In this document: in pieces, positions 1-42,925 of the stretch
Position numbering within the stretch: the stretch's first letter is position 1
How the letters are laid out: every line of letters begins with the position of its first letter
DNA from: a virus
Direction: 5' to 3' (one strand)
Virus record (IMG/VR): IMGVR_UViG_3300047490_000254
Span: 1 to 58,706 of that record
DNA length: 58,706 nucleotides
The notes under the pieces: generated by a model
Told to the model about the DNA's origin: nothing
The model's database searches: none
What the model saw: only the letters and a program-made list of their open reading frames with translations
Position numbers and translations under genes: made by a program

Positions 1-135
1 CCACTACCGCTTTTACCTGGGTTAGTTCCACTACCGCTTTTACCTGAGTTAGTTCCACTACCGCTTTTACCTGGGTTAGTTCCACTACCGCTTTTACCTG
101 AGTTAGTTCCACTACCGCTTTTACCTGAGTTAGTT
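1..135 (-). repeat. 27-bp tandem repeat, five copies, inside tape measure gene
   Basis: Five exact-length 27-bp units start at 1, 28, 55, 82 and 109 and continue past the left edge. On the minus strand each encodes nine residues, GKSGSGTN followed by P or S. The variable codon differs by one base (CCA or TCA) and reads, from position 1, P, S, P, S, S, hinting at a 54-bp higher-order unit. The array is in frame with the tape measure gene, so it is a flexible Gly/Ser-rich tail of that protein rather than a non-coding satellite. Confidence 0.95.
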
Positions 136-9100: not shown

Positions 9101-12100
9101 GTTCTCGCCCAGTATTGGTGTCATACTTGGAATAAGCTTTTGAACCACCAAAATCAGTAGACTCTAACCCCAGCAAGTTAACTAGCCACTGGTTTTTATC
9201 AAGCATTGAATATATTTTTTTACCGAAATTATTAGGCAAACTAAATGGAGTATTTTTGTCAGTTTCTTCACTATTGTGCCAGTCATAGACATCATTAATC
9301 TGTAATCCACCGTCTTTAGTTTGGGTGTAATTAAATCCGCCTAATGTATGTGCAAGGGTAGGTAAGTTTTCATGCTTAACCATATTCACAAAGCCACCAT
9401 CAGGTAAATAGCCTTCTTTTTCCGCAGCTTGCATCATATTAAAAATGGTAGCAATCTCTGCCTCTCGCGCTAAAGCAGAATTAAGTTTATGTACTTGTGC
9501 TGTTCCTTGATAGAAAGCCCCTAAATGTCTTAAAGGCGTTTCAATATTTTTGGGTGTCAATCCTGAATTAGCTAAACCCATCATAATAGTTCCAATCATA
9601 GAACCAAACGCAGTAGGCTTACTTATTCCTTTGGACTCATCGTAAACTTTTTGGGTTAATTCAGAATTTGGACTAGATGCGTTTAAAGTTGCTTCCTGAA
9701 AAGCCTCAATATTTTGTGACGGCAAAGATTGCAAGGACTTCATCTTGTTGATTACCATGTCCGTTAATTCATCAGTGGCACTGGAAACATCAATAACACC
9801 TTTTTTAATCCCTATAGCCAACCCTGACGCTATCATTAAGCCCAATGCTATCATCACTTTCGATGGTGAACTGATACCCATATTCTGCTTAATCCGGGAT
9901 TGGATTGAATTACCAGCATTGTCCATAACTTTAGTAACACTTCCAATACTGTCCGCCATTCCTTTACCCAGTCCTTTCATAATATTTCCGCCTATGGACG
10001 TAAATGGCTTGGAAGAAGTATTATCAGAGGCTATAGCAGCACTACTAACATTTCTTGAGTCAGATTTACTTATTGGTTGCTGACTAGGTAAATGACCCAT
10101 ATTCTTTTTAACTTGATTACTTACAGCATTAGTACTAGCACTCACAACTTTAGATGAAGCTGCAACGGTATTAATAAGACTTCTATTAATGTTTTCAACT
10201 ACGTTGCCACTCATGCGAGCAAAAGCATTTAAGGAAACGCTGTGTTTGTCCCCAAAGCTACCAATGGCATCAGCTACTTGAGTGGGTGCGCCTAAATCAG
10301 TAATTGATTCCGCGATCGCCTGTTGATGAGTTGCACCTTTAGCAGCCTTTGTTACAATATTCCTATATAAATCTCTGGGAATAGTCAAAGCATCTATGCC
10401 ATCAGCAAATACCGTCCCTGCGGTTTCAGTAACGGAATTAGCTGCTGTACCAAAACCAGTAGGAACTACTTTTAATGCACTACCAATAGCTTTGATAATC
10501 TCAGGTTTAGTTAACTTTAAATCTTTTAATTTCTCCGTGAGAACCGCTTTATAAGCAGCCATGTAATCAAGAGACGGATCTTTTGCTAACCTGGTCTTAG
10601 TTTCCCCATGGGATTGGGCTACCGCTTTTCCTATTGCACCACTTCTTAAAAGTGCTGTCATACCAGACTGAGCCGCATCAAAAGCAGTAAATGAGCTTAC
10701 ACCGAAAGTAGCTGCACCTGCTTTACTTAAATTAATAAAATGATCAAATGCTTCTCTAGGCTTAGTAAGTGTCTTGTCAGCCCTTAGTTCAGCAACAAAA
10801 TCTTTTCCAGACTCAAACGCAGACTGAAATAATGTTTGTTCTGGGTTAGCAGCGTGTCGTTCTCCTACTTTGTCAAGCATCTTTAGCCCAGAATCAGATG
10901 CAGCTAATCCTACACTCCCATAAGTGGCCGCAGTAGACATACCCGGTATAAGACCACCAACAGCCAATGCTGGCTCAAGAATTTCTTTAGCTGAACCCAC
11001 AGCATCTTTAACGGTGCTTACAAGCTGTCTAGCCCCTACCGCAACTTTGCTGTTCCCTTTTTGCATCCCAAGAAACAGCCCAGAAGCTATCATCATCCCA
11101 ATCTCAAACATCACCAAAGATGGAGACTGGATTTTCATCTTAGCTTCAACAGTTTCAATCAAGTCATCAAGCATCTGTCTAGCAGTATCAGACACGCCAT
11201 CAGAGCCATGCTTAACACCTTTTGCTAATCCTGCGTCAATATCAATACCTAATTGTTGAGCCAAGGGTGCATAGTAAGCAAGCTGCTTATCAAAAATACT
11301 TTTTTCTTCTGTGTTTAGCTTACCTATTGCCTCATTAGCCCTTTTAGCATTAGCACTTACAGGAGATTTACCTCCAGCATGAACTTTGCTAAGATCACTG
11401 TTAATTTTTTTATCAAAACCAGCATCTTCGGCTTGTTTAACAATATTATCTATATCTTTTATTGCAGAATTACTAGTTAATATAAACTTTTTAAGTTTTT
11501 CTTTCGTGGCTTTAATTTCTGCTGGAGTTCCTGTTTTTTTAGTCTGGTCAACTTCAATTTTTAGCTTTTTATATTCTTCACTAAAATAATTGTTAATAGC
11601 TTTAAAAGAGGCTTTAACATTTTCTAAAGATATTTCTTTTTGTACTTTTATTTCGTCTGATTTTTTGGACTTTCCTATTTCCAATGGCACTAATTCTTCA
11701 CCATTCTCTCTAGCAGTTGCTTCAACATACTGCTTAGACAAATCAATATTTTTTAATGTATTAGTTTTTATGGTTTCAAAGTGCTGTTTTAGTTGCTGTG
11801 GTACTTGACTAGCAGTAGTTTCAATAGGCACTAATTCAAGTTCTGGTTGTGGTTTTTTGGATTTTCTAGGAATATTTACAGGAATATTTAATGGCTGCTC
11901 TACAGGCGATTGTATTGCTTGTGTTACCACAGGAGCAGCTATTAAATTAATAGCAGATATAGAATTATTTAATGTATTGACTGCATTGTTCAATGACTGA
12001 GCGGCGTTTTCTAAACTAATTGCAGCCTGACTTAATCCTGAATCGGTAGAAACGGTACTTACATTGGCTATGTACTCATTTAATCCTTTTGTGGCACTTT

Positions 12101-13613
12101 CTAAGTTGCTGGCAGCTTGTTTGAGTTCTGATTCAGGGGTGACAGGAATAGGCTTGGGTTTTGGAGTATTTATAGTCCCAGTTTTCAAAAACTCACTAAC
12201 AACACCATAAGTATTCGGTAGTATAGTTTTTGTTGTTGACTTTACAGATTGTTTTGCAAAACTAACTATTTGAGAGCCAATTTTTCCGCCAAGAGACCCA
12301 GAGCCATCTCCCGTTCCCTCTAAAGAATTAAATACACCATTAACTGCATTTTGTATCTTTGCAGAGGAATTAGCAAGAATATTCTGAGATCCTTTCCGCA
12401 CTGCGCCGATAGTAGCACTTTTAACTCTTTGGGCTGTGTTTTCAAGTGATTGCTCAATTTCAGTCACAAATTGATTGTTAATTTCAGTCAAGAACTGACT
12501 AGCAGCAGATGGTTTTACTGGTGTTTGTGTCTCTACATAATCATCAACCATCCCTCTTAAAATTGCCTCTACTCGCTTTTGTTCGTTTTTAGGATCTGAT
12601 TGGGCTTTTTTACCTATACCAAAATAACGCAACAAGCCTTTGGCGGCAACCTGTCCAGTAGCTTCAAAATCTACATCAACATCATTGGCGACTTTGGGTG
12701 GATTATATGCTTTTTTTCTACTTCTTTTGGTGCTACCAACAGCATTAGAATTGCTTGTACCTTGATACCATGCAGCGCGGTGATCGTGCGCTACAACAAA
12801 AGCATCAATTCCATCTTTAAGAATAGCTTCTACTCGCTTCTGTTCATTTTTAGGATCTGATTGCGCTTTCTTACCTACACCAAAATAACGCAACATCATG
12901 TTACTAGTTATCCTAGTCATAGTTGGAATATCAACACCAACAGCATCCTCAATACCTCTATTAATCCCATCAGTAAAACCTTTACCAAGTCCTCCAAATA
13001 TCCCGTCCATAATAGCTCTACCTGGATTAACCACCATGTCTACTTTTTGGACTTTATTTGGCGATGAAGCTTCTTTAGCTGTTTGTTGTTGAGCCGTTAC
13101 TGAAGCTTGTTCTGACATTTCTTCTTTAACAGCATTTTTAACAGCATCAGCTAAACTTTTTTCTAGTTGCTTACTTAAATCAGATTCAACAGTAATAGTA
13201 ATAGTTCTACTAGAAAGCCCGCCTAATCTTTCTTCTAATTCATCAAGACTTTTGGTATCGGTATTAACTTTAATTGGATTGCTATCAAAATACTTATTAA
13301 CTTGTTTAAGGTGCTGTACTTTTAAATTTAAGTGTTCATTCAAATCAGTCAAGCTACTATCATCAACATTGACAACAATAGGATTATTATTAAAATACTT
13401 ATTAACTTCTTTAAGATGTTGTACTTTTAAATTTAAGTGCTTATTTAAATTGACTAAGCTATCATCGTCCACTCCGACATTAAGATTAATATTTTCAAAG
13501 CTTTTTTCTACCGACACAGCCGCTTCATAAGCCTTCTTCTTAGCCCGTTCCAAAGTCTTTTCTAGCTCAGAAGAATCAGCAGATAACTCTACAATTAATT
13601 CGCCTAAATTCAT
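1..13613 (-). CDS. Giant tail tape measure protein (3' end outside window)
   Basis: The frame starting at the ATG at 13613 (AGGAG eight bases upstream) stays open for 4537 codons and leaves the window. A tape-measure N-terminal-type domain (TIGR02675-like) lies at about residues 2860-3020, with the typical sequence KGKLSMEELRQQLGEKFPPA. Also visible are hydrophobic Gly/Ala-rich stretches (about 3420-3510), long coiled coils (about 3640-4140), a degenerate M23/LytM-like domain (about 4245-4362) and GKSGSGTN repeats at the end. Short modules are duplicated internally, for example YFG[VI]GKKAQSDPKNEQ twice, EGIGDKINKVKDLFG twice and RERGV-type units several times. The family sets tail length during assembly and is ejected into the cell envelope with the DNA. 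It is the last gene seen in the late operon. Identity is firm; the total length is unknown. Confidence 0.93.
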   Translation of the reverse strand, partial: MNLGELIVELSADSSELEKTLERAKKKAYEAAVSVEKSFENINLNVGVDDDSLVNLNKHLNLKVQHLKEVNKYFNNNPIVVNVDDSSLTDLNEHLNLKVQHLKQVNKYFDSNPIKVNTDTKSLDELEERLGGLSSRTITITVESDLSKQLEKSLADAVKNAVKEEMSEQASVTAQQQTAKEASSPNKVQKVDMVVNPGRAIMDGIFGGLGKGFTDGINRGIEDAVGVDIPTMTRITSNMMLRYFGVGKKAQSDPKNEQKRVEAILKDGIDAFVVAHDHRAAWYQGTSNSNAVGSTKRSRKKAYNPPKVANDVDVDFEATGQVAAKGLLRYFGIGKKAQSDPKNEQKRVEAILRGMVDDYVETQTPVKPSAASQFLTEINNQFVTEIEQSLENTAQRVKSATIGAVRKGSQNILANSSAKIQNAVNGVFNSLEGTGDGSGSLGGKIGSQIVSFAKQSVKSTTKTILPNTYGVVSEFLKTGTINTPKPKPIPVTPESELKQAASNLESATKGLNEYIANVSTVSTDSGLSQAAISLENAAQSLNNAVNTLNNSISAINLIAAPVVTQAIQSPVEQPLNIPVNIPRKSKKPQPELELVPIETTASQVPQQLKQHFETIKTNTLKNIDLSKQYVEATARENGEELVPLEIGKSKKSDEIKVQKEISLENVKASFKAINNYFSEEYKKLKIEVDQTKKTGTPAEIKATKEKLKKFILTSNSAIKDIDNIVKQAEDAGFDKKINSDLSKVHAGGKSPVSANAKRANEAIGKLNTEEKSIFDKQLAYYAPLAQQLGIDIDAGLAKGVKHGSDGVSDTARQMLDDLIETVEAKMKIQSPSLVMFEIGMMIASGLFLGMQKGNSKVAVGARQLVSTVKDAVGSAKEILEPALAVGGLIPGMSTAATYGSVGLAASDSGLKMLDKVGERHAANPEQTLFQSAFESGKDFVAELRADKTLTKPREAFDHFINLSKAGAATFGVSSFTAFDAAQSGMTALLRSGAIGKAVAQSHGETKTRLAKDPSLDYMAAYKAVLTEKLKDLKLTKPEIIKAIGSALKVVPTGFGTAANSVTETAGTVFADGIDALTIPRDLYRNIVTKAAKGATHQQAIAESITDLGAPTQVADAIGSFGDKHSVSLNAFARMSGNVVENINRSLINTVAASSKVVSASTNAVSNQVKKNMGHLPSQQPISKSDSRNVSSAAIASDNTSSKPFTSIGGNIMKGLGKGMADSIGSVTKVMDNAGNSIQSRIKQNMGISSPSKVMIALGLMIASGLAIGIKKGVIDVSSATDELTDMVINKMKSLQSLPSQNIEAFQEATLNASSPNSELTQKVYDESKGISKPTAFGSMIGTIMMGLANSGLTPKNIETPLRHLGAFYQGTAQVHKLNSALAREAEIATIFNMMQAAEKEGYLPDGGFVNMVKHENLPTLAHTLGGFNYTQTKDGGLQINDVYDWHNSEETDKNTPFSLPNNFGKKIYSMLDKNQWLVNLLGLESTDFGGSKAYSKYDTNTGRELFSFLNKEKHDFQLGHSVHSSVIGGSPYIQTHNLNKDEFDNLIDLATNPYLKSKSIKGNPNLKSFLEHPEISKYIKATQSSDEGGIKSLVSAVKKDFGEGSKFKKVFDNIFDPVSSQLNKQYEEYYQQLDQQEKSGDYKNRLVAEDIYDKLENPNNDMTKESVLSLISAHRMAGVRGDSDMQSRLHNILLNQFKANNPSIEGIGDKINKVKDLFGSEGIGDKINKVKDLFGSGFNFKEIGGNLISSFAQGFMSANGGVLGIVTKFAKGILSAVKKVFRIASPSGEGIDTGENYASSHAIGINNQAQTAVNAARNMAEDIRNAIADPYPNAQILSSKNFVLNPNAQIISSQKFTPKPDAQILFSRNFAPNLNAQIVSSQKFTPKPDAQLILPVVQGLSPAIRSTHSLEQNSISALIAANKQIQAIIAGNKVTVSSRFAPIPDPWTTPPLPTQAVKQLSKQMTGQYRPIPDFWLTSSRSTQAFKQAGKLPTGQIPITLSSTVPSFIPQPAGTATPKYVLPPQILGTTVPAYTVPVNPTPNTSSAPSISNNPNLNPVRPLPPTLLNQYLNLGTDLVTNIFNAVSTSIRQSTLSGYASLGQVMRNAVNAALFSLADTLKQPLHQALLSQTRSILPWFLKFIPRSFQLLPKLSFAIPFVGGMVLRFGNSIVKNLLENNILKEGGFLTNLLSSITRVDLSALSGTKTAGVTGFLKNIVSPVPLLVGSQFNPLLTLGISSASPFYDAFSGILGLDKSVKPNPKKQAPTIEKVLQDQTKINREKALLRDVKETGTSASVNAGVGQNLAAYPDAQRTKTEELLKRAVESGKAIPKLDELTRKALRERGVSSFVRNRMDSAELLTERENILKNPLNATSKERDFLLYTADMKKANAATLKEQEKRIISILKERGKSDQDIENIRNSGAYALLNVGDDLIKNLPTITKQPTATQTVQPRTSSASIASKELVENLGNTLLNSVLNNLDIPVIPKSVIQGMIGKKLRERSATIADAINAFGVEKSKAEQLLEKTVQSGRTDLGKRADGLTKQILRERGVTESVRNAMTPEQLAASREKITKSPIDLTARERKLLKFMGDFESHAATMGNDVATRKRDAMVMSVLQERGMSRAERKQIQQSQGGQGLSSFADNLRDNPRTGGFMGRLTEAYASNDQDAMKELVKQGLRKTGMSAKQVNNIDPKLLDTATAGLMTTLSGLQAKFREKGFDMGKALAKGLKDSMVNLANAKDDLEYNAKKVMGQANFGDSVGLIFRRMFRGTVATQGQFAEMYNQMGSGVKNLIFKDPKEGDEIFPNILQFVGSITTTLAPITTMIGAITPLLLPLAPIITGIGMAVNMVAPHVAKLIDGIQRVEVLQRRFKFLGGSKEGGKAEFNYAKDIATKLNVPSEVAANSYSQLAIAAKDSKMEGQGVKELFEGITSSLSALGINGQDASLVFMAYTQILAKGKLSMEELRQQLGEKFPPAMATFAKAMGVTIPEMNELVASGGILSQDILPKVAKVLKEDYGSAAADQAGGLVVALNRLGNVGFEITTIFTDKIGGTLAFFVNTFANILGVLSGALKEMIPLVQSFMIGFAATISIGLTIILSKFGPLRVAIGSLQSFLLATFSAITTNMMPMVVGIVSDVADGWLGAERNLLDNMFQGINNMIVTVFSTIDTAMRSMSDNKVSFSSLFGGLIQGAEQAGSIIDWLKGVFAGFFKILPSGIVEILAIVFMLEQGTGLMVMALWPAITKLWGGITGIFGATAKAFYGVMGTIKSVIELMMTSSAVASNATNNVAASGVRSTAIVQGALGFLSKALLHFGLAYAVLMFSKGDFSDPLRESINKSTADINKHLNQVRLNIGQTTEAFNKATKSVEKLGNTITDALPAKGVQLDIRSLWGGGDYKWDDAVRDTNAKYRPGSTGAIAGPSAMDVLGPVALGLGGAAVAYVTGAKIFATAITTAETTIAAIKAAQLAKAAISIPLMGRIAMAIAPMLASPIAPIALAVIGFAAAIGLATVALDAFAPKITEAQLNNTEEKGGLPEEIKQIINAKEVGERLDSASLQVIKLYKDQQLSNQRLKEFMASIGLDGKTPYSFVARPVVPMTQEQKEQFESETPVRNITKRIEDTKASLQGLENVGTTETEKSKARSKEGYKTVQEELTQLEKDKLLMQISFMANYDNKPRMNAIDKQIKDKEKEIADSYKDSRNFDYTYTTDGFGGASIGRNIKADELTKELEKLQKEKAVLQTNINASAKRRVNYDAIKKIDVDIEKTAAEFVEASNQLAVSPNDKLRNKAGLAKERIAQLQKRRQKLVDEFGDPTPAIKQMLEVTKREIEKTLSDSSILPQQRTVTVKELRKTQETLEKSLAEAEKFSIAPIADTMYTQAVAALKDNEVKSNVDISKNKIVSNQSQAKLYGTTLTSQQIAPGLSDRQIADLTFQQKVLERSLKIKEDSLKKLQIAAAGSPTNLSQIQEEITKLQQEIAKDKEQVSQNTLEIIKAQREARQALIDQTKQVAEYYRTSLRESQAATIEFDKATNNIKSQQFAIKLKQALVGAGNNIFTNFIDSVIGLFQQLTEIENLRLDRQKQKLDYENNIQDILIKVTEMQRSLPGKIVPFSLDQIRNFDKQLGTVNKSVSSINKEINNVANGIGVSAVNSTINLNKALQDLLKTLQDINKNPLNPAMQPFNNPSNPATQVPVNGSGDPNAILSIPQASLPTSTPVANATKEMLVAGLMSDMGMGYTPYSQVTKPKPKLPDNAFLSPIVGKSLSNIINTKYRHEDSFGKTGGIRFNQNIGVGKNTNIQSSVTGMATLIGNTLEIIKQTKGGTIKLIYEGLNIPSVKKNLKLNDGGSVNINAGQLIGNLAGNNFKFRTEINSSNMDPLKVVRDIEYKRLNAFQRVARFFDQPNEAVTNLGLLPEPKPVATSSTPSTPPVNRAINWVKGFIRENTPEPVKRVILNTKNFVNNVNVPKIDYADPRSGGLYGGVTGIIEFLLPGTGKKPTPTNSGKSGSGTNSGKSGSGTNPGKSGSGTNSGKSGSGTNPGKSGS

Positions 13614-13637
13614 AATATTAACTCCTATAAAGAAAAA

Positions 13638-13668
13638 GATTACAGATTAAGAATATTAATCTGTAATC
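13638..13668 (-). terminator. Terminator-like hairpin between tail chaperone and tape measure genes
   Basis: Perfect 13-bp arms GATTACAGATTAA and TTAATCTGTAATC enclose five bases. On the minus strand the hairpin is followed by TTTTTCTTT and then by the tape measure RBS. It overlaps the stop codon of the frameshifted chaperone. It looks like an intrinsic terminator or attenuator that would lower tape measure transcription relative to upstream genes. Confidence 0.7.
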
Positions 13669-24444: not shown

Positions 24445-24472
24445 AACCCACTATTAACAGTGGGTTTTTTTG
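24445..24472 (+). terminator. Intrinsic terminator
   Basis: AACCCACT/AGTGGGTT stem with six-base loop followed by a T-run. It separates the DUF3820-like gene from terL. Confidence 0.88.
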
Positions 24473-24486
24473 TGCATATAAAAATC

Positions 24487-25959
24487 ATGAACAAACTTAA
24501 TCCTAAAAACATCATTAAAGTCAGAGAATACACTAAAACCAGGTCATCTAAAAACCAAATAATCCATATTGATCTGCCGGACCCCCAACCCGGAGCGCAA
24601 GAACTATTTTATGACAACTACGCTGATGTCTGCATATATGGGGGTGCAGCCGGCAGTGGCAAAAGCTACGCTATGTTACTAAAAGCAGCTAAATATTTAA
24701 ACGTGCCTGGTTATGGTTCAGTAATTTTCAGAAGAACTCGACCGGAAATAACTAATGAAGGTGGTTTATGGGATGAGTCTAGGAGTTTATATAAACAGAT
24801 TAAGAACTCAGTAGCCCGTGAGTACCAGCTTGACTGGACATTTCCCAATGGTAGCGCGATTAGTTTTGGTCATGCTCAGTACGAGAAAGATGTAGAAGAC
24901 AAGTACCCTGGTTCGCAGATATGCCATATCGGTTTTGATGAACTGACTAAGTTTACTGAGCGTCAATTCTGGTTTCTCTTTTCCCGTAATCGTTCCGCCT
25001 GTGGGGTCAAGCCTCGCATAGATGCAACTTGTAACCCTGATGCTGATTCATGGGTAGCTAAGATGATTAGTTGGTACATTGATCAGAACACAGGATATCC
25101 CATAGAAGAACGGTCAGGAATTATCCGTTATTTCTATCGGATTAATGGGGAATTGCACTGGGGTGATACTGAAGATGAACTCATGGACAAGTTTCCTGAC
25201 TTAGCAGAAATAGCACCGCCTAAAAGCTTTAGTTTTATTAAAGGTACGGTTTATGACAACCCGGCACTAATAGAAACTAACCCTCAATACTTACAAAATC
25301 TATTATCGTTGCACCCTGTAGAGATGGAAAGGCTACTTAAAGGCAACTGGAAAATTAAATATGAATCAGGGACCATCTTTAATCGTCAGTGGTTTGAGAT
25401 TGTTAATGCAGTTCCCAGTGGTGGTACAACTGTGGCATTTTGGGACTTTGCAGCCACCGCCGCTGATGTTGCCACCAAGTCTAGTTTTTATAGTGTACGT
25501 ACTAAAATTAAATTACATCAAGGTACGTACTATATTCTTGACTGTCACTGGGAACAGGTATCAGCAGAAGAAGGCGACTTATCAGTAGTCAAAATAGCTT
25601 ACCAGGATGGTCCAGATTGTAAAATCAGATGGGAACTAGAAGGTGGTAGTGCTGGTAAACGTTATGAAGTTTCGCTAAAGCGTCAATTAGCACAATTTGA
25701 CGCTAAAGGAATTAAACCATTGGGGGATAAAGTGACCCGTGCCTTACCCATGGCGATCGCAGCCAAACAGGGAAAAGTCAAACTACTTAGGGGTGCTTGG
25801 AACGACCAGTTTCTCGCTGCGATACATGAATTTGATGGAAGTAAAAAACCCCTCACCAATGACATTGTAGACAGTGCCGATGGTGCTTTTAGTGAATTGG
25901 GCAACTCAGCACCTCGAAGCACCTTTGTGGGCGGAAAAATTAACAATCCGTTTGCTTAG
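24487..25959 (+). CDS. terL: Terminase large subunit
   Basis: 490 residues from ATG 24487; in-frame GTG or TTG codons upstream lie in the terminator. ATPase half: Walker A GGAAGSGKSYAM, arginine-rich VIFRRTRPEIT, Walker B ICHIGFDELTKF, and a coupling motif around DATCNPDADSWV. Nuclease half: acidic residues in FWDFAATAADV and in NDIVDSADGAFSEL, as in RNase-H-like terminase nucleases. The protein pumps and cuts DNA at the portal. It is on the plus strand, opposite to TerS (30.6-31.2 kb) and the capsid genes, an unusual split. Expression may need read-through or an unseen promoter. Confidence 0.95.
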   Translation: MNKLNPKNIIKVREYTKTRSSKNQIIHIDLPDPQPGAQELFYDNYADVCIYGGAAGSGKSYAMLLKAAKYLNVPGYGSVIFRRTRPEITNEGGLWDESRSLYKQIKNSVAREYQLDWTFPNGSAISFGHAQYEKDVEDKYPGSQICHIGFDELTKFTERQFWFLFSRNRSACGVKPRIDATCNPDADSWVAKMISWYIDQNTGYPIEERSGIIRYFYRINGELHWGDTEDELMDKFPDLAEIAPPKSFSFIKGTVYDNPALIETNPQYLQNLLSLHPVEMERLLKGNWKIKYESGTIFNRQWFEIVNAVPSGGTTVAFWDFAATAADVATKSSFYSVRTKIKLHQGTYYILDCHWEQVSAEEGDLSVVKIAYQDGPDCKIRWELEGGSAGKRYEVSLKRQLAQFDAKGIKPLGDKVTRALPMAIAAKQGKVKLLRGAWNDQFLAAIHEFDGSKKPLTNDIVDSADGAFSELGNSAPRSTFVGGKINNPFA

Positions 25960-31823: not shown

Positions 31824-33395
31824 ATGAAAACTTTTGAATTTAAACTTGACCCCACGGTTGCACAGGTACAAACGATTAATCAATGGCTAGACAAACTCAA
31901 GTGGGTTTGGAATACAGGGCTGTCACTCAAGCTAGCAGGAAGACAGAAATATTATAGAGAGAAAGAAATAGGCGATCGCGTCATTCCCGATGGTGTGGTT
32001 TTGCAGTGGAAATGGCGAAAGGTTGTTACTGAAGACAAAAAAGGTAAGTCTACCGAGAAATGGGAGAAAGTACGCTTAGTTGGTACAGGTGTCATTAGAC
32101 CTAAAAGCGGTCATCCTTACTGTGAAATTAGACAACATTTGAATATTGAAAACCCTGATAAATATGGACAATGTGAATTTTATAGGAGTGACAATATTCC
32201 CGACTTTATGGCAGATGTTCCCACTAAATTTAAGGCAGGGGTAATTGATTCTTTAAAGAAATCATGGAAAGCTTACGTCACCCCAAAACACCCCGGTAGA
32301 AAGCCAAAATTCAAAGGGAGAAATGATAAAATCAAGTCACTTGTTAATCTCAACGCTGGGGGTTTATCTAAAGAATTAAAACCGGAAAAAATACCCGGTT
32401 CAAATAATGGTTATGTCCAGTTCCCCAAGCTTGGTAAAATTAAAGTTAAAGGATTATTTGATAGATATGACTGGCAAGAATGGGGTCCAGCCAGAATAGT
32501 TAAAGAACCATCAGGTTACTATCTTCATGTATGCGCTGATGTCCCTAATGACCCATTACCAAAATCTGATAAAGCAGTGGGAATTGATCCGGGTTTACTA
32601 TCAATTATTACCACAGATCAAGGGAGAGAAATAGAACCGCCCAAGCTATTTAGAAAACAACAGGTAAAGCTAAGACGATTACAGCGTAAAGCATCTAGGC
32701 AGAAGAAAGGAGGATGTAATCAGAAGAAAACCTATCACAAAATAGCTCTACACCATGAAAAGATCCGCCGCAGCCGCAACGCATTTAACCATAAGTTATC
32801 TACTAAAGTTGTGCGTGAGTATTCTGGGATTGTGATGGAAGACTTAAAGATACAAAACCTGAACCGTAAGCCCAAAGCCAAGAAACGTGAGGACGGCAAT
32901 GGCTATGAACAAAACGGTGCAAAACGTAAAGCCGGGTTAAACAAAAGTTTTGCCGATTCAGCACTGGGTGATTTAATCAGTAAGATTGAAACAAAGTGCA
33001 AAGATACTGATAGAGAGTTTGTAAAAGTTGCGGCACACTACACTACGGTTGACTGTTCAAAATGTGGCGCTAAAATAAAGAAAGCATTGAGCCAAAGAAC
33101 TCACTGCTGTACAGAATGTGGTCACACTGAAGGACGTGATTCTAATGCAGCCAAGAATATTTTACTCAAAGGCAAAAAGCAATTACAAACAGTGTACCGC
33201 GCTTGGGCGTGGGAACATGGGGAAACCCGAAAGCCTGGCTCTGATTCCAATACGGAATGTCACCAGGAAGGTGTGCAAACACCACCGGAAGATGGATATT
33301 CCTCCCAATTAAACCCCGAAAGGGGAACTCAGCGCGGAAGGGGGGATGTAAAAACCTCTAAAACCGTGAAAACAACCCCAAAGGTAGACAGGTGA
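31824..33395 (+). CDS. tnpB: RNA-guided nuclease TnpB (IS200/IS605 family)
   Basis: 523 residues, longer than the usual 370-450 because of an inserted N-terminal stretch (about 40-95) and a long basic tail. The split RuvC site is intact: Asp in AVGIDPGLLS, Glu in IVMEDLKIQNL, Asp in GRDSNAAKNIL. The four-Cys zinc ribbon DCSKCG..CTECG lies between the last two. TnpB cuts DNA guided by omega-RNA made from the 3' end of its own gene and the element's right end. There is no tnpA here, so movement would need a transposase in trans. It is immediately adjacent, tail to tail, to csf1. Confidence 0.93.
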   Translation: MKTFEFKLDPTVAQVQTINQWLDKLKWVWNTGLSLKLAGRQKYYREKEIGDRVIPDGVVLQWKWRKVVTEDKKGKSTEKWEKVRLVGTGVIRPKSGHPYCEIRQHLNIENPDKYGQCEFYRSDNIPDFMADVPTKFKAGVIDSLKKSWKAYVTPKHPGRKPKFKGRNDKIKSLVNLNAGGLSKELKPEKIPGSNNGYVQFPKLGKIKVKGLFDRYDWQEWGPARIVKEPSGYYLHVCADVPNDPLPKSDKAVGIDPGLLSIITTDQGREIEPPKLFRKQQVKLRRLQRKASRQKKGGCNQKKTYHKIALHHEKIRRSRNAFNHKLSTKVVREYSGIVMEDLKIQNLNRKPKAKKREDGNGYEQNGAKRKAGLNKSFADSALGDLISKIETKCKDTDREFVKVAAHYTTVDCSKCGAKIKKALSQRTHCCTECGHTEGRDSNAAKNILLKGKKQLQTVYRAWAWEHGETRKPGSDSNTECHQEGVQTPPEDGYSSQLNPERGTQRGRGDVKTSKTVKTTPKVDR

Positions 33396-33481
33396 AACCG
33401 ACCTTGGGGAACTGGGTTAATTGCAAGTTGAAAGCCTTATAGGTGAAACCGACCTTGGGGAACTGGGTTAATTGCAAGTTG
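33372..33481 (+). repeat. Right-end hairpin and 41-bp direct duplication
   Basis: CCCCAAAGGT and ACCGACCTTGGGG (about 33375-33410) form a right-end-like hairpin overlapping the tnpB stop. A 41-bp segment at 33390-33430 is repeated exactly at 33441-33481, ten bases later, ending next to the csf1 stop. A third, diverged partial copy (GAACTGGGCTGATTGCAGGTAG) lies inside csf1. The omega-RNA scaffold and guide would lie here. Confidence 0.7.
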
Positions 33482-34243
33482 CTAAAATAAGGACAACTGA
33501 ACTGGGCTGATTGCAGGTAGAATCATGGGAGAAGCAGGAATTACAGGAATTGGTGTTATTTCCGCCACGAAGACACTTGATTGTATTTGAGCGATGTAAT
33601 TTATCAACTCTATTAATCTAGTGCCTCTAATGGCTTTTATTCCTCCTTCAAGTTCCCAAAATCTATCGTCAAAAACTTTCATTAGTTTGTCGCTTCTATA
33701 ATTGCCTGAATCAATCTCAGTTTTACTAAATCCCAATCCCATTAATTCTTCATATATCTGCAAATACTTTTTAAATCTGCTATCAACATAAACTGTGTCC
33801 AACTCAAATTGAACTGGAAAAAGCGTACGACTACGCGCTTCTAATGCCCATGGGATAATGTGTTTTTGTCCTGATTCTGCTATGGCAATAGTAAACGGTG
33901 GTTCAGGAGGATTTAATAAGTATTCCCTGGTTTCTACCCGTGTTAATAAGTTTTTGACCACACCGAAAGTATCTTTACCTTCAGTATGAGTACCTTCAAT
34001 TATTGGTGCTATTAAAGTGTCACCTTGGTACACCCTGGACAAAGACCGTCCCCACAGTTTTGACCACTTATTTTTACCTTCATTCCAATACCATAACTGC
34101 TTTTGATTACCAGAAATTGTGGAATAGCAGCGATCGCACAGCAGCTTAGAATCTGGACACTTAGCTGATGAGTGCATAGTGAAAGTATTAGATAATTCCA
34201 ATGGATTTGAAGCTGGTTTAGCGCAAAGGTAACAGTTAAACAT
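33482..34243 (-). CDS. csf1: Csf1, type IV-B CRISPR-Cas large-subunit-type protein
   Basis: 253 residues from ATG 34243, which overlaps the cysH stop (ATGTTTAA). Four cysteines C4xxC7 and C36xxC39 near the start form a zinc finger as known for Csf1. The rest is mixed, with VLAEITPIPV-type hydrophobic sequence late. The protein ends PVQLSLF, a perfect QL[SD]LF beta-clamp-binding pentapeptide. It comes last in the operon here. Identity rests on operon context plus the zinc finger; size fits the family. Confidence 0.75.
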   Translation of the reverse strand: MFNCYLCAKPASNPLELSNTFTMHSSAKCPDSKLLCDRCYSTISGNQKQLWYWNEGKNKWSKLWGRSLSRVYQGDTLIAPIIEGTHTEGKDTFGVVKNLLTRVETREYLLNPPEPPFTIAIAESGQKHIIPWALEARSRTLFPVQFELDTVYVDSRFKKYLQIYEELMGLGFSKTEIDSGNYRSDKLMKVFDDRFWELEGGIKAIRGTRLIELINYIAQIQSSVFVAEITPIPVIPASPMILPAISPVQLSLF

Positions 34244-34982
34244 AGTTTGATATTTGTGGGAATTTATCAACAAATTGGTTGTAAATATTGGGATAATATC
34301 TTTTTAATTCAGCTAATCTACCCCAGTTTGCTCCTGTAGTTCCAATCGGGCAACCATTCCTGATTGTCATTTTGTTAATGTCATAAATTGCTGGGTATTT
34401 GAGTGAGTACATATCTATGTACTGCCATATTTCTTCTGTAGTCCAGTGAGCAATAGGCGAGCAACAAATTAACCCATTTTTTAGTTCATGAACTTCGCCA
34501 TACTTGTTAAGATAAAATGCTCTATTTTTGCTTTCTTGTTTCCTTATTCCCCATGCGTACCCTTTGATATTGTTAATTTCTTGGTACTCTTGTAATGGAT
34601 CATAAATCAATTTTTGGTTAATTAATTTATCTACTTTTGTATCCATCGTACCCTCTAATGGAACTCCGTAATCTATGTATAAATGCCATAGGTCACGAAC
34701 TGGACAAAGCTCAATAATGTTCCAGTTTTGAGTTTTTAAGTATTCCAATAACTCAATACAATCATCCCATTCTGCTAACAACCCTTGGTTTACCCAAACT
34801 AACGGGCAATCAGGGTAAACTTTTCTAATTAAATGAGACATTACCAAGCTATCTTTACCACCGGAAATACTTGCATAAACCTGATAGTTGCATTGTTCTA
34901 GCCATTGATTAATGAAATTAATAGCCTTGGTAATTTTCTTTTTTAACCAAGGGTATTGAGTCCCTGAACCGTTACTAAGCAT
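34236..34982 (-). CDS. cysH: CysH-like PAPS-reductase-family protein of type IV-B
   Basis: 248 residues. PP-loop SGGKDS at 40-45, then WGIRKQESKNR and SPIAHWTTEEIWQYI, all family landmarks. The metabolic-enzyme catalytic ECGLH-type tail is missing; instead it has NGCPIGTTGANW. A CysH-like gene inside a csf operon is the hallmark of subtype IV-B. The ATG overlaps the csf3 stop by eight bases (ATGCTTAG). The biochemical role in IV-B is unresolved; nucleotide or RNA modification is a hypothesis. Confidence 0.88.
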   Translation of the reverse strand: MLSNGSGTQYPWLKKKITKAINFINQWLEQCNYQVYASISGGKDSLVMSHLIRKVYPDCPLVWVNQGLLAEWDDCIELLEYLKTQNWNIIELCPVRDLWHLYIDYGVPLEGTMDTKVDKLINQKLIYDPLQEYQEINNIKGYAWGIRKQESKNRAFYLNKYGEVHELKNGLICCSPIAHWTTEEIWQYIDMYSLKYPAIYDINKMTIRNGCPIGTTGANWGRLAELKRYYPNIYNQFVDKFPQISNYV

Positions 34983-35661
34983 AAATCACATTATCCTTTG
35001 GCATATAGCAAAGTTCTTTATTAGCTGCCAGCCAAGCCGGGCTTTTCCATCCCCAAATCAATTGAGGATTATCTATTTTTTGTGATATTAACTTCACAGG
35101 CATAGGACGCATTAGCTTATCATCTCGCCATAAATGATAGTCATCATAAGCTATTTCTATTTGCCATTGCTTAATCTCACCATTGCCATAACTTCGTTTT
35201 TTCTGAATATGGGTAACAGGTGACAATAGAGCGTTAATCCTGGCTTTGTCTCCTACTGCAAACCAACTAATACTATTCGTTAAACGAGTGTATAAAGGCA
35301 AATCATAAGACTTTTCCACGCCTTCACCTGTCAAGAATTTAGCTTTTCTTTTCCCCCAATTCAAACTATTTTCATGATTATCCCATCTTTTCCGGTATCT
35401 ATCAGTATTTTCACTTTTGACCACGTAACAAGGTGAACTTACACAGAAATATTTATCATTCATTATTGTATTCTGTTTAAGCGGTAATTCATCTACTAAA
35501 AAATCCTGAACCTTTGCTACTTGCTCTGCGGTAGGATTGGGAGACAATAGATTATTTTCTTCCAATAATCTATGAGTAAGAAGTCCCTCTAAAGCAGGAC
35601 TCCAATTGTCATAGACACCAATCGGTGTAGACAAATATGCAGTGACTTTTAAATTATTCAC
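34975..35661 (-). CDS. csf3: Csf3, Cas5-like RAMP subunit
   Basis: 228 residues from a GTG start overlapping the csf2 stop (GTGAATAA). RAMP-like features: ALEGLLTHRLL in the first helix and THIQKKRSYGNGEIKQWQI, a Gly-rich Cas5-type loop followed by a beta strand. Cas5-type subunits cap the 5' handle of guide RNA. Its place between csf2 and cysH matches type IV-B operons. Confidence 0.8.
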   Translation of the reverse strand: MNNLKVTAYLSTPIGVYDNWSPALEGLLTHRLLEENNLLSPNPTAEQVAKVQDFLVDELPLKQNTIMNDKYFCVSSPCYVVKSENTDRYRKRWDNHENSLNWGKRKAKFLTGEGVEKSYDLPLYTRLTNSISWFAVGDKARINALLSPVTHIQKKRSYGNGEIKQWQIEIAYDDYHLWRDDKLMRPMPVKLISQKIDNPQLIWGWKSPAWLAANKELCYMPKDNVIYA

Positions 35662-36787
35662 CTAACAACTTCCTTAATTCTTTGGATGTTTTTGCTTCAC
35701 TTAAAAACTGCTGATACTGACTGATATATTCCCGATATTTTTGATGGGAATTAAGAAACCTATCTCCTATAATTCCATCTTTCAGAGAACACAATAACCC
35801 CCGTTCATGGTCAGACTGAAACCAGAAATCAAGATGAACCCTGCCATTGCCACGATTGCCTTTACCACCAATATAAGGTGATTCTGAAAACTTGAGCAAA
35901 GTATCAAATATCCATCCCTCCTCTACTTGAGTACAATTCAAATCCCATCGGGAATAAAGTTTAGCACCGGGCATAATTAATCTATCAGCAGCAATCATCT
36001 GGTCTGATTTATTTTTCTCTTTAGTTTTACCATCACCTGTTAATCGCGCTTGTACTTCTGATGGTAGAAATTTGAGTAAGTTGGGATCTAAAGTGCTATC
36101 CCTGCGAGTTGTCTGATCAATTGTTAAGTATTCAGTCCATGTTTTCATTGCTTTTTTGACCAATGGTAAACATTCTGATTTTACTTGATTCCAATTAGTC
36201 AAGTCTTGTGGTTTTGTGGCAACAAAAGGGTCAGAAGAAAGTCTGTTTTTGGCTTCAATTAATGTTAAAATAGTCGGTTGTATTTCCGGTGGTAAAATTG
36301 CTGGGACTTGATTGTAAACGTATTCTGCTGACTCATAGCAGACTAAATAACCACTGCCAACATTAATTCTACCAGCTACCATCTGAGCTTCTTTAGTTCC
36401 AAAAACACCTATGGGTTTAGCTGTTCCTAATACTGACAACCAAGGCATAAAGACCCGGATCTTTTTATCCAGTTCCATATCTGAAGCCGTCCCCCCATCA
36501 ATTCGCCCGCCAGCAAACATTGTATGGTGAGTATCTGGATTTACTTTAATTCTTAATTCTGTGAGTGCTGCTGCCACTCCTACCCGGCGCAAAATACCGT
36601 TTCTGATTGCATTACCAGAATAGACAAAAACACTTCTAGGATTACCTTCAAAATCCAATAACTTAGTAGTTTTCAAGTTGCTAACATTGCCAGATACTTC
36701 GCCTATATGGCTCAATGGTGTCTGTAGCGTGATTAAGCAATGCAGAGTTAATTTCTCTCTGTCAAAAATATTATAATTGTCAAACAT
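35654..36787 (-). CDS. csf2: Csf2, Cas7-like backbone subunit
   Basis: 377 residues. Cas7/RAMP features: TPLSHIGEVSGNV strand-loop, VYSGNAIRNGILRRV (the G-N-x-x-R-x-x-x-R helix found in Cas7 and Csm3), and a late Gly-rich SPYIGGKGNRGNGRVHL. Csf2 polymerises along guide RNA. The ATG overlaps the cas11 stop by eight bases (ATGTTTGA). This is the best-supported csf gene by sequence. Confidence 0.88.
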   Translation of the reverse strand: MFDNYNIFDREKLTLHCLITLQTPLSHIGEVSGNVSNLKTTKLLDFEGNPRSVFVYSGNAIRNGILRRVGVAAALTELRIKVNPDTHHTMFAGGRIDGGTASDMELDKKIRVFMPWLSVLGTAKPIGVFGTKEAQMVAGRINVGSGYLVCYESAEYVYNQVPAILPPEIQPTILTLIEAKNRLSSDPFVATKPQDLTNWNQVKSECLPLVKKAMKTWTEYLTIDQTTRRDSTLDPNLLKFLPSEVQARLTGDGKTKEKNKSDQMIAADRLIMPGAKLYSRWDLNCTQVEEGWIFDTLLKFSESPYIGGKGNRGNGRVHLDFWFQSDHERGLLCSLKDGIIGDRFLNSHQKYREYISQYQQFLSEAKTSKELRKLLGE

Positions 36788-37298
36788 TTGTCACTTCTAC
36801 CTCAATAAATTCCTCTGGTTCATCAAGTCCCAAGCTTCTGTCTTCTTCAAAACGCAGCCGACAAATTACTTGGATAATTCCTGTTTTTGTTCTTAATAAT
36901 TCCAGTACATCCCATTCGCTAAATCCGTGGGGTTCAATATCAGCAAGCAAGTCAAGCCACCCCATAAAAACCAAACTTCGATCTATTGGTAGTTCCTTGA
37001 TTTCAGTTGCATCTTCATTAATTCTCAGTATTCTCTGAGTTGGTTGAATGATTTTGGTTAGCTCTACAGGTCTTAATTGCGATATCAATTTATCGCAAAG
37101 CCTTTGTAAATAATCTTCTAAATTTGTGGATATTTCTGCGCAATTCTTGATAGAAGATTCCAAGTATGTCCAGGTTTTAGTTCCCATCGCTGGACTACGT
37201 TTTCTATCACGACATTTGAAAACCCAATAACTTAAACAAGCCGCTACGCCATAACATTTGTCTCGTGTCTGCGGCATCCCATAATGATTTATTGTCAC
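36780..37298 (-). CDS. Cas11-like small subunit of type IV-B
   Basis: 172 residues from a GTG start. Largely helical with RDKCYGVAACLSYWVFKCRDR near the N-terminus trimmed to fit the small-subunit helical bundle, and an acidic end (EEFIEVEVTNV). First gene of the csf operon, the position of cas11 in IV-B. It has no motif of its own, so the call is contextual. Upstream 250 bp contain no obvious repeat array. Confidence 0.65.
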   Translation of the reverse strand: MTINHYGMPQTRDKCYGVAACLSYWVFKCRDRKRSPAMGTKTWTYLESSIKNCAEISTNLEDYLQRLCDKLISQLRPVELTKIIQPTQRILRINEDATEIKELPIDRSLVFMGWLDLLADIEPHGFSEWDVLELLRTKTGIIQVICRLRFEEDRSLGLDEPEEFIEVEVTNV

Positions 37299-41983: not shown

Positions 41984-42925
41984 TTAAAACAACGATAGCT
42001 GTTGATGACCGGGTTTAATCTTCTCCTCAATCTCTACCTGTTCCTCTACAGTTAATCCCCTCTGAGTTATTGGTGTGTTTAAGCGTTGATGGATAATGTC
42101 AACATATTCCCGTTCTTTCTCAATGCAGATATAGTTTCTGTTGAGTTCTTTACAGGCTAGTGCCGTTGTACCACTACCAGCAAATGGGTCAAGAACTGTA
42201 CCACCTTCAGGAGTCAGCATTTCTACTAGTCGCTTCATGATTTCTAATGGCTTTTCTGTGGGGTGGTTGTAAATACCTTTTCCAGCCCTTCCTGTCTGCC
42301 GATGAGATGGCAAAAAAGACCATACATTTGTAAAATTAACATCTCTGATTGCATACTCAGAGCGACTCATTTCAGGCTTTTTAAATTTTCTTGTTTTGTT
42401 AAATCTTGCTTTTTGAGTGTCTGCAAAATGACAGTCCTCCTTCCCAAAAGACCCAGTTTTGATTTTAGCTATTAATGCTGAAAAGTACCTTGAAAAAGAT
42501 TCAATTGAATGGGTATCAAACATTATTCCTGGTATTTTTACATCTGTATAACAACCTTGGGTAATATAAAATTTATTTTGTTTTTTTGTTTTATATATAA
42601 CTATTGATTCATGTGCTTTGTTTAAATTTTGTGGATGGGTAGCATAGCAAGCCCTCTTAATCCATGAGATATGTTCGCAATAATGCAGCTTTTCATTATT
42701 AGCTGAATTAATCCAATTAACCATAGTTGGCATTTGTCCAAAGAACGCATAAAAGCCATTGGTGACTCGTTTTACTTCTTTGGTAAAAAGTGGAATATCA
42801 ACCACAGAATCCCATTTAGCTAATCCAATACCATAAGGCGGATCTGTGATTACAGCGTCAATAGAACCATCAGGAATATCTTTCAAAACTTCAAAACAAT
42901 CACCATGAATTATCTGATTAATCAT
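41984..42925 (-). CDS. Site-specific DNA methyltransferase (N6-A or N4-C type)
   Basis: 313 residues. Motif IV DPPY at about 28-31 precedes motif I DPFAGSGTTALACKEL near 243-258, i.e. the beta-class order for DNA_methylase N-4/N-6. Between them lies the target recognition region with many Lys/Arg. It ends GHQQLSLF, a beta-clamp-binding pentapeptide like that of Csf1. No cognate nuclease is visible. Probably protects phage DNA or affects regulation. Confidence 0.92.
   Translation of the reverse strand: MINQIIHGDCFEVLKDIPDGSIDAVITDPPYGIGLAKWDSVVDIPLFTKEVKRVTNGFYAFFGQMPTMVNWINSANNEKLHYCEHISWIKRACYATHPQNLNKAHESIVIYKTKKQNKFYITQGCYTDVKIPGIMFDTHSIESFSRYFSALIAKIKTGSFGKEDCHFADTQKARFNKTRKFKKPEMSRSEYAIRDVNFTNVWSFLPSHRQTGRAGKGIYNHPTEKPLEIMKRLVEMLTPEGGTVLDPFAGSGTTALACKELNRNYICIEKEREYVDIIHQRLNTPITQRGLTVEEQVEIEEKIKPGHQQLSLF

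Follow-up and report, generated by a model that had tools for sequence, protein, structure and literature searches.

The function of type IV-B CRISPR-Cas complexes and the source of their guides have been a standing question since the subtype was defined (PMC7937560, PMC8175902, PMC11656645). The same question is raised here by an operon on the IMG/VR virus record IMGVR_UViG_3300047490_000254, of which the whole stretch of 58,706 nucleotides was analysed and is referred to below as the window. What does such an operon do for a virus, and which RNAs would it carry?

Viral origin and genetic context of the locus

Genes for terminase, capsid and tape measure proteins and a strong cyanobacterial HIP1 signal identify the window as a virus record, and support the proposal of a previous sequence-only reading that a cyanophage-like virus carries the IV-B operon. 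In that reading structural phage genes lay on both sides of the operon. Profile searches of the window ORFs confirmed this for the left side, with large terminase, major head and tape measure genes all within 1-26 kb; on the right flank they gave antirepressors, methyltransferases and proteins of unknown function. Neither tRNA genes nor matches to Rfam families were detected in the window. An origin of the locus from a host chromosome was considered and rejected, as the Csf2 profile retrieved one true member from 386 cyanobacterial genomes; the weaker matches in these genomes covered the profile partially and resembled type III Cas7. The relevant features are:

31824..33395, plus strand, c2c8 (V-U2 / Cas12u2, TnpB-like); NCBIfam V_cas_c2c8 1.1e-145, PADLOC Cas12u2 3.4e-165
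33391..33478, plus strand, relict CRISPR array; a 37-nt repeat in two identical copies (33391-33427 and 33442-33478) with a 14-nt gap
33482..34273, minus strand, csf1 (Cas8-like); PADLOC Csf1 7.1e-22, TIGR03114 1e-7
33485..33499, minus strand, C-terminal QLSLF of Csf1, following a disordered linker and predicted to bind the beta clamp
34236..34982, minus strand, cas-type cysH; PF01507 5.1e-18, alignment of 39 homologues
34975..35661, minus strand, csf3 (Cas5-like); PADLOC Csf3 1.9e-41, TIGR03116 1.3e-10
35654..36787, minus strand, csf2 (Cas7-like backbone); PADLOC Csf2 7.9e-36, NCBIfam TIGR03115 1.1e-7
36780..37298, minus strand, cas11, encoding the small subunit, at the start of the operon; PADLOC typeIV_Cas11 6e-6 (weak)
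41984..42925, minus strand, N6/N4 DNA methylase with the C-terminus QQLSLF; PF01555 4.6e-38

Gene content and classification of the operon

The five contiguous, co-directional genes reported earlier are present in the order cas11-csf2-csf3-cysH-csf1, and every neighbouring pair overlaps. The overlaps comprise 8 bp, except for cysH/csf1 with 38 bp, which is reduced to 8 bp if csf1 starts at the ATG at 34243, the likely true start as judged from homologues. The core genes csf1, csf2 and csf3 were all recognized by profiles, including those for csf2 (35654-36787) and csf3 (34975-35661) on which the earlier assignment had been made to depend. Structure prediction, likewise suggested there, gave a Csf1 model (AF2) with a core pLDDT of about 95, whose fold matches that of IV-A Csf1 (7xg1_A, 8rc3_G; Foldseek). 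All NCBIfam type IV matches lie under the curated cut-offs, as is expected because the branch is divergent. Based on three profile libraries, with matches for Csf1, Csf2, Csf3, Cas11 and CysH, and on the Csf1 fold, the operon is type IV-B, as originally proposed, and represents a distinct cyanobacterial branch.

The small subunit gene is assigned with moderate support. Its AF2 model is a helical bundle (pLDDT 81.5) for which a fold search against the PDB returned no match, so that the assignment depends on the PADLOC score and on the conserved position, cas11 homologues being located upstream of csf2 in most examined IV-B loci. In an alignment of 39 homologues, CysH retains the SGGKDS pyrophosphatase loop and has no conserved catalytic cysteine, as is characteristic of IV-B; PADLOC relates it to the DndC, SspD and BrxP profiles. 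Genes encoding PAPS reductases and ParB-like proteins occur near IV-B in other loci.

Among about 40 scanned window ORFs no dinG, cas6 or adaptation genes were found, and tblastn detected no cas6 in the window or its close relatives, which agrees with the earlier observation for cas6 and dinG. Cas6-like genes are present in other members of the cyanobacterial branch. The terminal position of csf1, which had been noted as unusual, is real and is the rule throughout this branch, whereas most other IV-B operons compared are arranged csf1-cas11-csf2-csf3-cysH.

Distribution of related operons

Of 13 further virus contigs, nearly all have the five genes in the same order, with Csf2 identities to relatives of 52-98%, and the operon is kept across phage contigs whose other gene content differs. 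Cellular relatives of the branch are one Spirulinaceae MAG contig and one Gloeobacter plasmid. Phage-borne IV-B as such is not new, and the previous statement that IV-B loci reside mostly on plasmids overstated the rarity of viral ones: an archaeal virus family carries them (PMC10848311), about 50 further IV-B loci were found in IMG/VR, and a search of phage isolates with Rhodovastum Csf2 as query revealed Skermania phage SPI1, the only isolate found, in which the operon is unannotated.

C2c8 effectors, arrays and spacers

Upstream of the relict array, which lies between c2c8 and csf1, the window encodes a C2c8 effector that shares 76% identity with its V-U2 counterpart in cyanophage CL131 and whose RuvC residues D-E-D are intact in the alignment, as required for V-U2. 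An array with usable spacers, which would complete a V-U2 system, is reduced here to two repeats and a 14-nt gap. Orientation and repeat assign this array to C2c8 and not to the adjacent csf1, and its repeats are the remnant of a C2c8 array, which relatives have at full length; in contig L194 the window's repeat heads a long array.

The majority of published IV-B loci lack arrays, and some have them. For the window, the sequence-only reading had stated that no CRISPR array was present and that guide RNA would come from elsewhere. The first statement is inexact in view of the relict array, and the second overlooks both the C2c8 gene beside it and the full arrays near the operon in most relatives. 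Eight of the 13 relatives found first combine the same operon with full arrays and a second gene resembling c2c8. Nine virus contigs were found to encode C2c8-B; IV-B is present on eight of them, and the ninth is too short to judge. In these eight, IV-B lies 1.25-8.3 kb upstream of C2c8-B on the same strand, and in each an array follows about 0.4 kb downstream of C2c8-B. No C2c8-B was detected in 386 cyanobacterial genomes at E 1e-60, in a search run without positive control. Phages with adjacent IV-B, C2c8-B and arrays offer a candidate guide source for IV-B. A conserved non-coding RNA upstream of cas11 was also considered as guide and discarded, since relatives remain similar over no more than about 60-110 nt from the start. 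As for class-1-like hairpins, only some of the phage repeats fold better than shuffled sequences, and no argument is built on them.

The arrays of the relatives contain 88 unique spacers with a mean length of 36 nt, none of which matches the phages' own contigs. Few spacers gave matches, and these hit cyanobacterial plasmids or replication genes; the matches were strong for four spacers only, all from relatives' arrays and none from the window. The targets include plasmid pANA03 of Anabaena sp. 90 (33/35 and 33/34), a 168.5-kb Mob_Pre-bearing contig matched by two adjacent spacers (32/33 and 30/35, the latter within a DUF3854 gene) and a 22.5-kb contig, within a long gene (31/35). Compared with these four real spacers, 0 of 4400 shuffled spacers scored below 1e-6 against the selected targets, which had been picked by the spacer search itself.

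A predicted clamp-binding motif at the C-terminus of Csf1

Csf1 ends in a tail of low model confidence (AF2 pLDDT 52-61) that carries QLSLF. The consensus for beta-clamp binding is QLxLF, and QLSLF has been called the full consensus (PMC4549789); a motif of this type at a flexible C-terminus is what sequences of clamp-binding proteins show. QLSLF is invariant among relatives although linker identity drops to 38-42%, and four of its five codons vary synonymously. A C-terminal clamp motif occurs in 12 of 64 Csf1 clusters versus 5 of 1870 control ORFs, an enrichment to be read with the fact that the motif was first noticed in the window clade (7/62 for the strict motif after removal of the two window-clade clusters). 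It is present in 20 of 77 Csf1 rows, in none of the 12 plasmid-borne ones, and in no csf2, csf3 or cysH; at least seven changes fall on well-supported tree branches, and the motif recurs at the Csf1 C-termini of distant virus-borne IV-B systems. A chance C-terminus was rejected with control ORFs and shuffles. The tail is missing in several members of the same branch (G013, L063, L065-L069, L028 and Gloeobacter) and is therefore not essential to IV-B. The DNA methylase at 41984..42925 of the same phage ends in QQLSLF as well.

From this five-residue motif we predict that the Csf1 tail binds the host beta sliding clamp. A search of open-access journal papers gave none that connects type IV CRISPR with the sliding clamp. 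The recurrent tail is a concrete hint as to where IV-B acts, and a predicted clamp-docking tag gives IV-B a testable job.

Possible function of the locus

The reading we favour, with slightly less than even confidence, is a clamp-tethered IV-B complex that serves competition between phage and plasmids and is carried together with a C2c8 effector and its array. Csf2, Cas11, Csf3 and Csf1 would form a nuclease-free filament on a small RNA, as is known for one IV-B complex; the IV-B ribonucleoprotein structure was solved on non-specific RNA (PMC7937560). The flexible Csf1 tail would dock through QLSLF on the host clamp and bring the complex to replicating DNA, where CysH, as ATP pyrophosphatase, may act on nucleic acid or on the complex. 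Competing elements, above all plasmids, would be disturbed in replication or expression; interference with plasmids is known for IV-A (PMC11656645). In most relatives the linked C2c8-type arrays may supply guides. In the window, with its array collapsed to two repeats, the complex would carry RNAs of another kind or be disarmed in part. Several points count against the favoured reading. Several branch members lack the tail, no cas6 was found in the window or its close relatives, and the four strong spacer matches all stem from relatives. The recombinant IV-B complex was not enriched in crRNAs (PMC7937560), and the C2c8 effectors, with their RuvC residues, may use the arrays alone. A more specific form, in which guides from arrays shared with a dedicated C2c8 partner direct a clamp-borne IV-B complex that stops replication of rival plasmids, appears unlikely. 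If this form were true, a class 1 effector and a class 2 effector would draw on a common guide store in a phage.

C2c8 with its array could also target plasmids as one passenger and IV-B be an unrelated second one, both merely occupying the same phage hotspot. CL131 has C2c8 and an array with no other cas genes reported around the locus (PMC6293099), most C2c8-A contigs found lack an intact IV-B, and the distance between csf1 and C2c8-B is variable. We nevertheless regard this as rather unlikely: no virus contig of judgeable length was found with C2c8-B but without IV-B, csf1 remnants lie near C2c8-A in three contigs, and on an Actinomyces plasmid IV-B is likewise reported next to a mini-array and a type V variant (PMC12669027). 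The tie to C2c8-B is equally left unexplained if the IV-B filament is an RNA sponge, as proposed in PMC7937560 and PMC8175902, that absorbs small RNAs including host crRNAs and so shields the phage from host CRISPR, the linked arrays serving C2c8 only. The window has no usable spacer, and IV-B in E. coli bound heterogeneous RNA of uniform length (PMC7937560), both in line with sponging; cysH and the recurrent clamp ligand find no explanation in it, and we consider it improbable. In a further alternative, CysH and the complex would modify new phage DNA, or RNA, at the fork for evasion of restriction, like the methylase with the same tail. The shared motif, the SGGKDS loop with its relationship to DndC, SspD and BrxP, and the PAPS-reductase and ParB-like neighbours elsewhere point in this direction. 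CysH has no conserved catalytic cysteine (PMC8175902), which excludes phosphorothioation, and no IV-B system is known to carry out a modification. We regard this role as very unlikely.

Comparison with known systems

The IV-B systems of actinobacterial plasmids (Mycobacterium sp. JS623 and others) share csf1, csf2, csf3, cas11 and a cysH-like gene without catalytic cysteine, and likewise no cas6 or dinG was found in the scanned window. The window differs by its tailed phage carrier, the terminal csf1, the predicted clamp-ligand tail of Csf1 and the linkage to C2c8 and arrays. IV-B of the Fuxiviridae, viruses of Bathyarchaeia (PMC10848311), is also virus-borne, includes CysH and is accompanied by a mini-array in the virus; the host is archaeal, and the passages considered describe neither a clamp tail nor a C2c8 effector. 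The V-U2 system of cyanophage vB_AphaS-CL131 (PMC6293099) shares its closely similar effector, followed by an array, and its phage carrier with the window, but has an intact 10-spacer array with another repeat and no reported IV-B. On the Actinomyces plasmid (PMC12669027, Extended Data Fig. 7) a mobile element likewise brings IV-B together with an array and a type V effector; this element is a plasmid, and its Cas12b3, a V-B derivative, has an inactivated RuvC, whereas C2c8 of the window has kept the RuvC residues. The C-terminal QLxLF, in Csf1 a predicted clamp ligand, is shared with beta-clamp-binding transposases and replication proteins (PMC4549789).

Type IV-B operon and carrying element

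The operon of the window (33482-37298) consists of five overlapping genes, all on the minus strand, in the order cas11-csf2-csf3-cysH-csf1. Type IV profiles recognized Csf1, Csf2, Csf3 and Cas11, and the PAPS_reduct profile matched CysH, which retains the SGGKDS loop and has no conserved cysteine, as described for IV-B CysH (PMC8175902). The AlphaFold model of Csf1 was confident over residues 11-230 and its sole strong PDB matches were IV-A Csf1 proteins. By all sequence features tested, the array excepted, the operon is of subtype IV-B. The sequence-only reading had placed such an operon on a cyanophage-like element, and both the operon and its location are borne out. The phage structural genes are:

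1-13.6 kb: tape measure protein
20-21 kb: major head protein
24-26 kb: large terminase

These genes, as well as antirepressors and methyltransferases elsewhere in the window, were assigned by PHROG profiles. The virus record (58,706 bases) is linear and therefore possibly a fragment. The tape-measure-like ORF (1-13646, minus strand) is very long, reaching 4548 aa without being closed at the edge of the contig, and contains 27-bp tandem repeats at 1-135. Among isolates, the large terminase (24460-25959, plus strand) is closest to Methanoculleus (archaeal) viruses, with 46% identity. The octamer GCGATCGC (HIP1), a signature of cyanobacterial DNA, occurs 27 times versus 0.26 copies expected from composition. 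Because of this excess and of a c2c8 gene 76% identical to that of Aphanizomenon phage CL131, the host is likely a cyanobacterium.

Relatives and gene order

The branch was found on 13 more virus contigs (Csf2 identity 63-98%), some truncated by contig ends, and a distant scan yielded further members; on cellular DNA the branch turned up only twice, in a contig of a Spirulinaceae MAG and on plasmid pGMOR1 of Gloeobacter. In this branch csf1 is the last gene, whereas the usual order elsewhere is csf1-cas11-csf2-csf3-cysH. A Cas6-like gene lies inside the operon in Gloeobacter and the compared loci L063 and L065-L069; a search of the window and of the contigs closely related to it found none. 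In contig L004 (11806-13207) the usual cysH has given way to a divergent cysH and an extra 230-aa gene ahead of csf1, which shows that cysH can be swapped. In locus L075 (7478-8431) the operon core is deleted, leaving a csf2 stub of 61 aa and, after it, the 3' portion of csf1. The isolated Skermania phage SPI1 (L078, KR011061) carries a csf1-cas11-csf2-csf3-cysH operon at 3846-7479, annotated merely as hypothetical proteins.

C2c8 effectors, arrays and spacers

Downstream of csf1 and oriented toward it lies a C2c8 (V-U2) effector gene with intact RuvC residues:

31824-33395, plus strand: c2c8 (type C2c8-A)
33391-33427 and 33442-33478, between c2c8 and csf1: two identical 37-nt repeats, 14-nt gap

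The earlier claim that an array is missing has to be revised, as the repeats adjoining csf1 form a relict array, because arrays behind near-identical c2c8 genes are long: about 20 repeats in contig L194, headed by the window's repeat letter for letter (c2c8 96% identical), and 28 in G004 (97%). The 3' end of csf1 (33499-33515) has 15 of 17 nt in common with the C2c8-A repeat TGCAATTAACCCAGTTC (17 of 17 in contig L003), which may date from a recombination event in which the array collapsed through exchange with csf1. Fragments of csf1 near C2c8-A also occur in three phages without an IV-B operon in the stretch read (L193, 13433; L195, 7983-8090; L196, 8927-9043) and are remnants of an operon that has been lost.

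Of the 13 relatives, eight have a further C2c8-like gene, termed C2c8-B (27% identity to the first). It lies 1.25-8.3 kb beyond csf1 on the same strand and is followed by an array about 0.4 kb on. Nine contigs with C2c8-B were found in IMG/VR, eight of them with IV-B; the ninth is a 7.6-kb fragment whose 5.9 kb upstream fall short of the largest observed distance.

The relatives' arrays hold 88 unique spacers (mean length 36 nt), none of which matched the 14 phage contigs. Strong matches were obtained on pANA03 of Anabaena sp. 90 (33/35 and 33/34), on a contig of 168.5 kb that encodes a Mob_Pre relaxase (32/33; the neighboring spacer matched its DUF3854 gene with 30/35) and in a long gene of a 22.5-kb contig (31/35); one more spacer resembles a spacer of a host array (29/32). 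These few matches point to plasmids and replication genes as targets. The single spacer match of phage CL131 is likewise a primase pseudogene (PMC6293099).

Predicted clamp-ligand tail of Csf1

Csf1 of the window ends in QLSLF (33485-33499), a full-consensus form of the bacterial beta clamp ligand QLxLF (PMC4549789), on a tail with pLDDT 52-61 (AlphaFold). Compared with contigs L006 or L008, the core is 81-85% and the linker 38-42% identical, while the motif is conserved in 5/5 residues; four of its five codons vary synonymously across the clade. Across IV-B loci, the strict motif occurs within the last 20 residues in 9 of 64 Csf1 clusters versus 4 of 1870 control ORFs, and in 12 versus 5 if the hexapeptide form is included. 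Three of the control ORFs with the motif represent one phage DNA methylase family, including window 41984-42925. In the same scan csf2, csf3 and cysH gave none and cas11 one. In the Csf1 tree the motif is found in 20 of 77 rows (0 of 12 plasmid rows), with 10 changes, at least seven forced by well-supported branches; variants include QLSLF (L077, L094), QLGLF, QLELF, QLALF, QLLLF and QLALDLF. That the motif has arisen repeatedly, always at this end of this subunit, suggests that the tail has a function.

The methylase at 41984-42925 (N6/N4 type, minus strand; homologs in L002 and L004) ends in QQLSLF, the same predicted ligand. On a Rhodovastum plasmid (L027, 7483-7953) Cas11, not Csf1, has a clamp-like C-terminal motif (FQLELFEAA). 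One contig (L013/L064, 1454-8665) carries duplicate csf3, cysH and csf1 and a csf2 remnant, with the motif (QLLLF) only on the second csf1.

Proposed role and known systems

We propose a nuclease-free RNP which the clamp would bring to replicating DNA; it would be used against plasmids, whose replication is the putative process blocked, and the C2c8-linked arrays are the putative guide source. Set beside the C2c8-B linkage, it seems rather unlikely that C2c8 with its array and IV-B are independent passengers. An RNA sponge function of the IV-B complex is considered unlikely too, and a DNA marking system quite improbable.

Parts of the arrangement have precedents: virus-borne IV-B (PMC10848311), phage V-U2 arrays in cyanophage CL131 (PMC6293099), and one plasmid carrying IV-B together with a type V variant (PMC12669027). 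Within the literature searched, two features appear to be new: the dedicated linkage to C2c8-B and the Csf1 tail with its clamp ligand.
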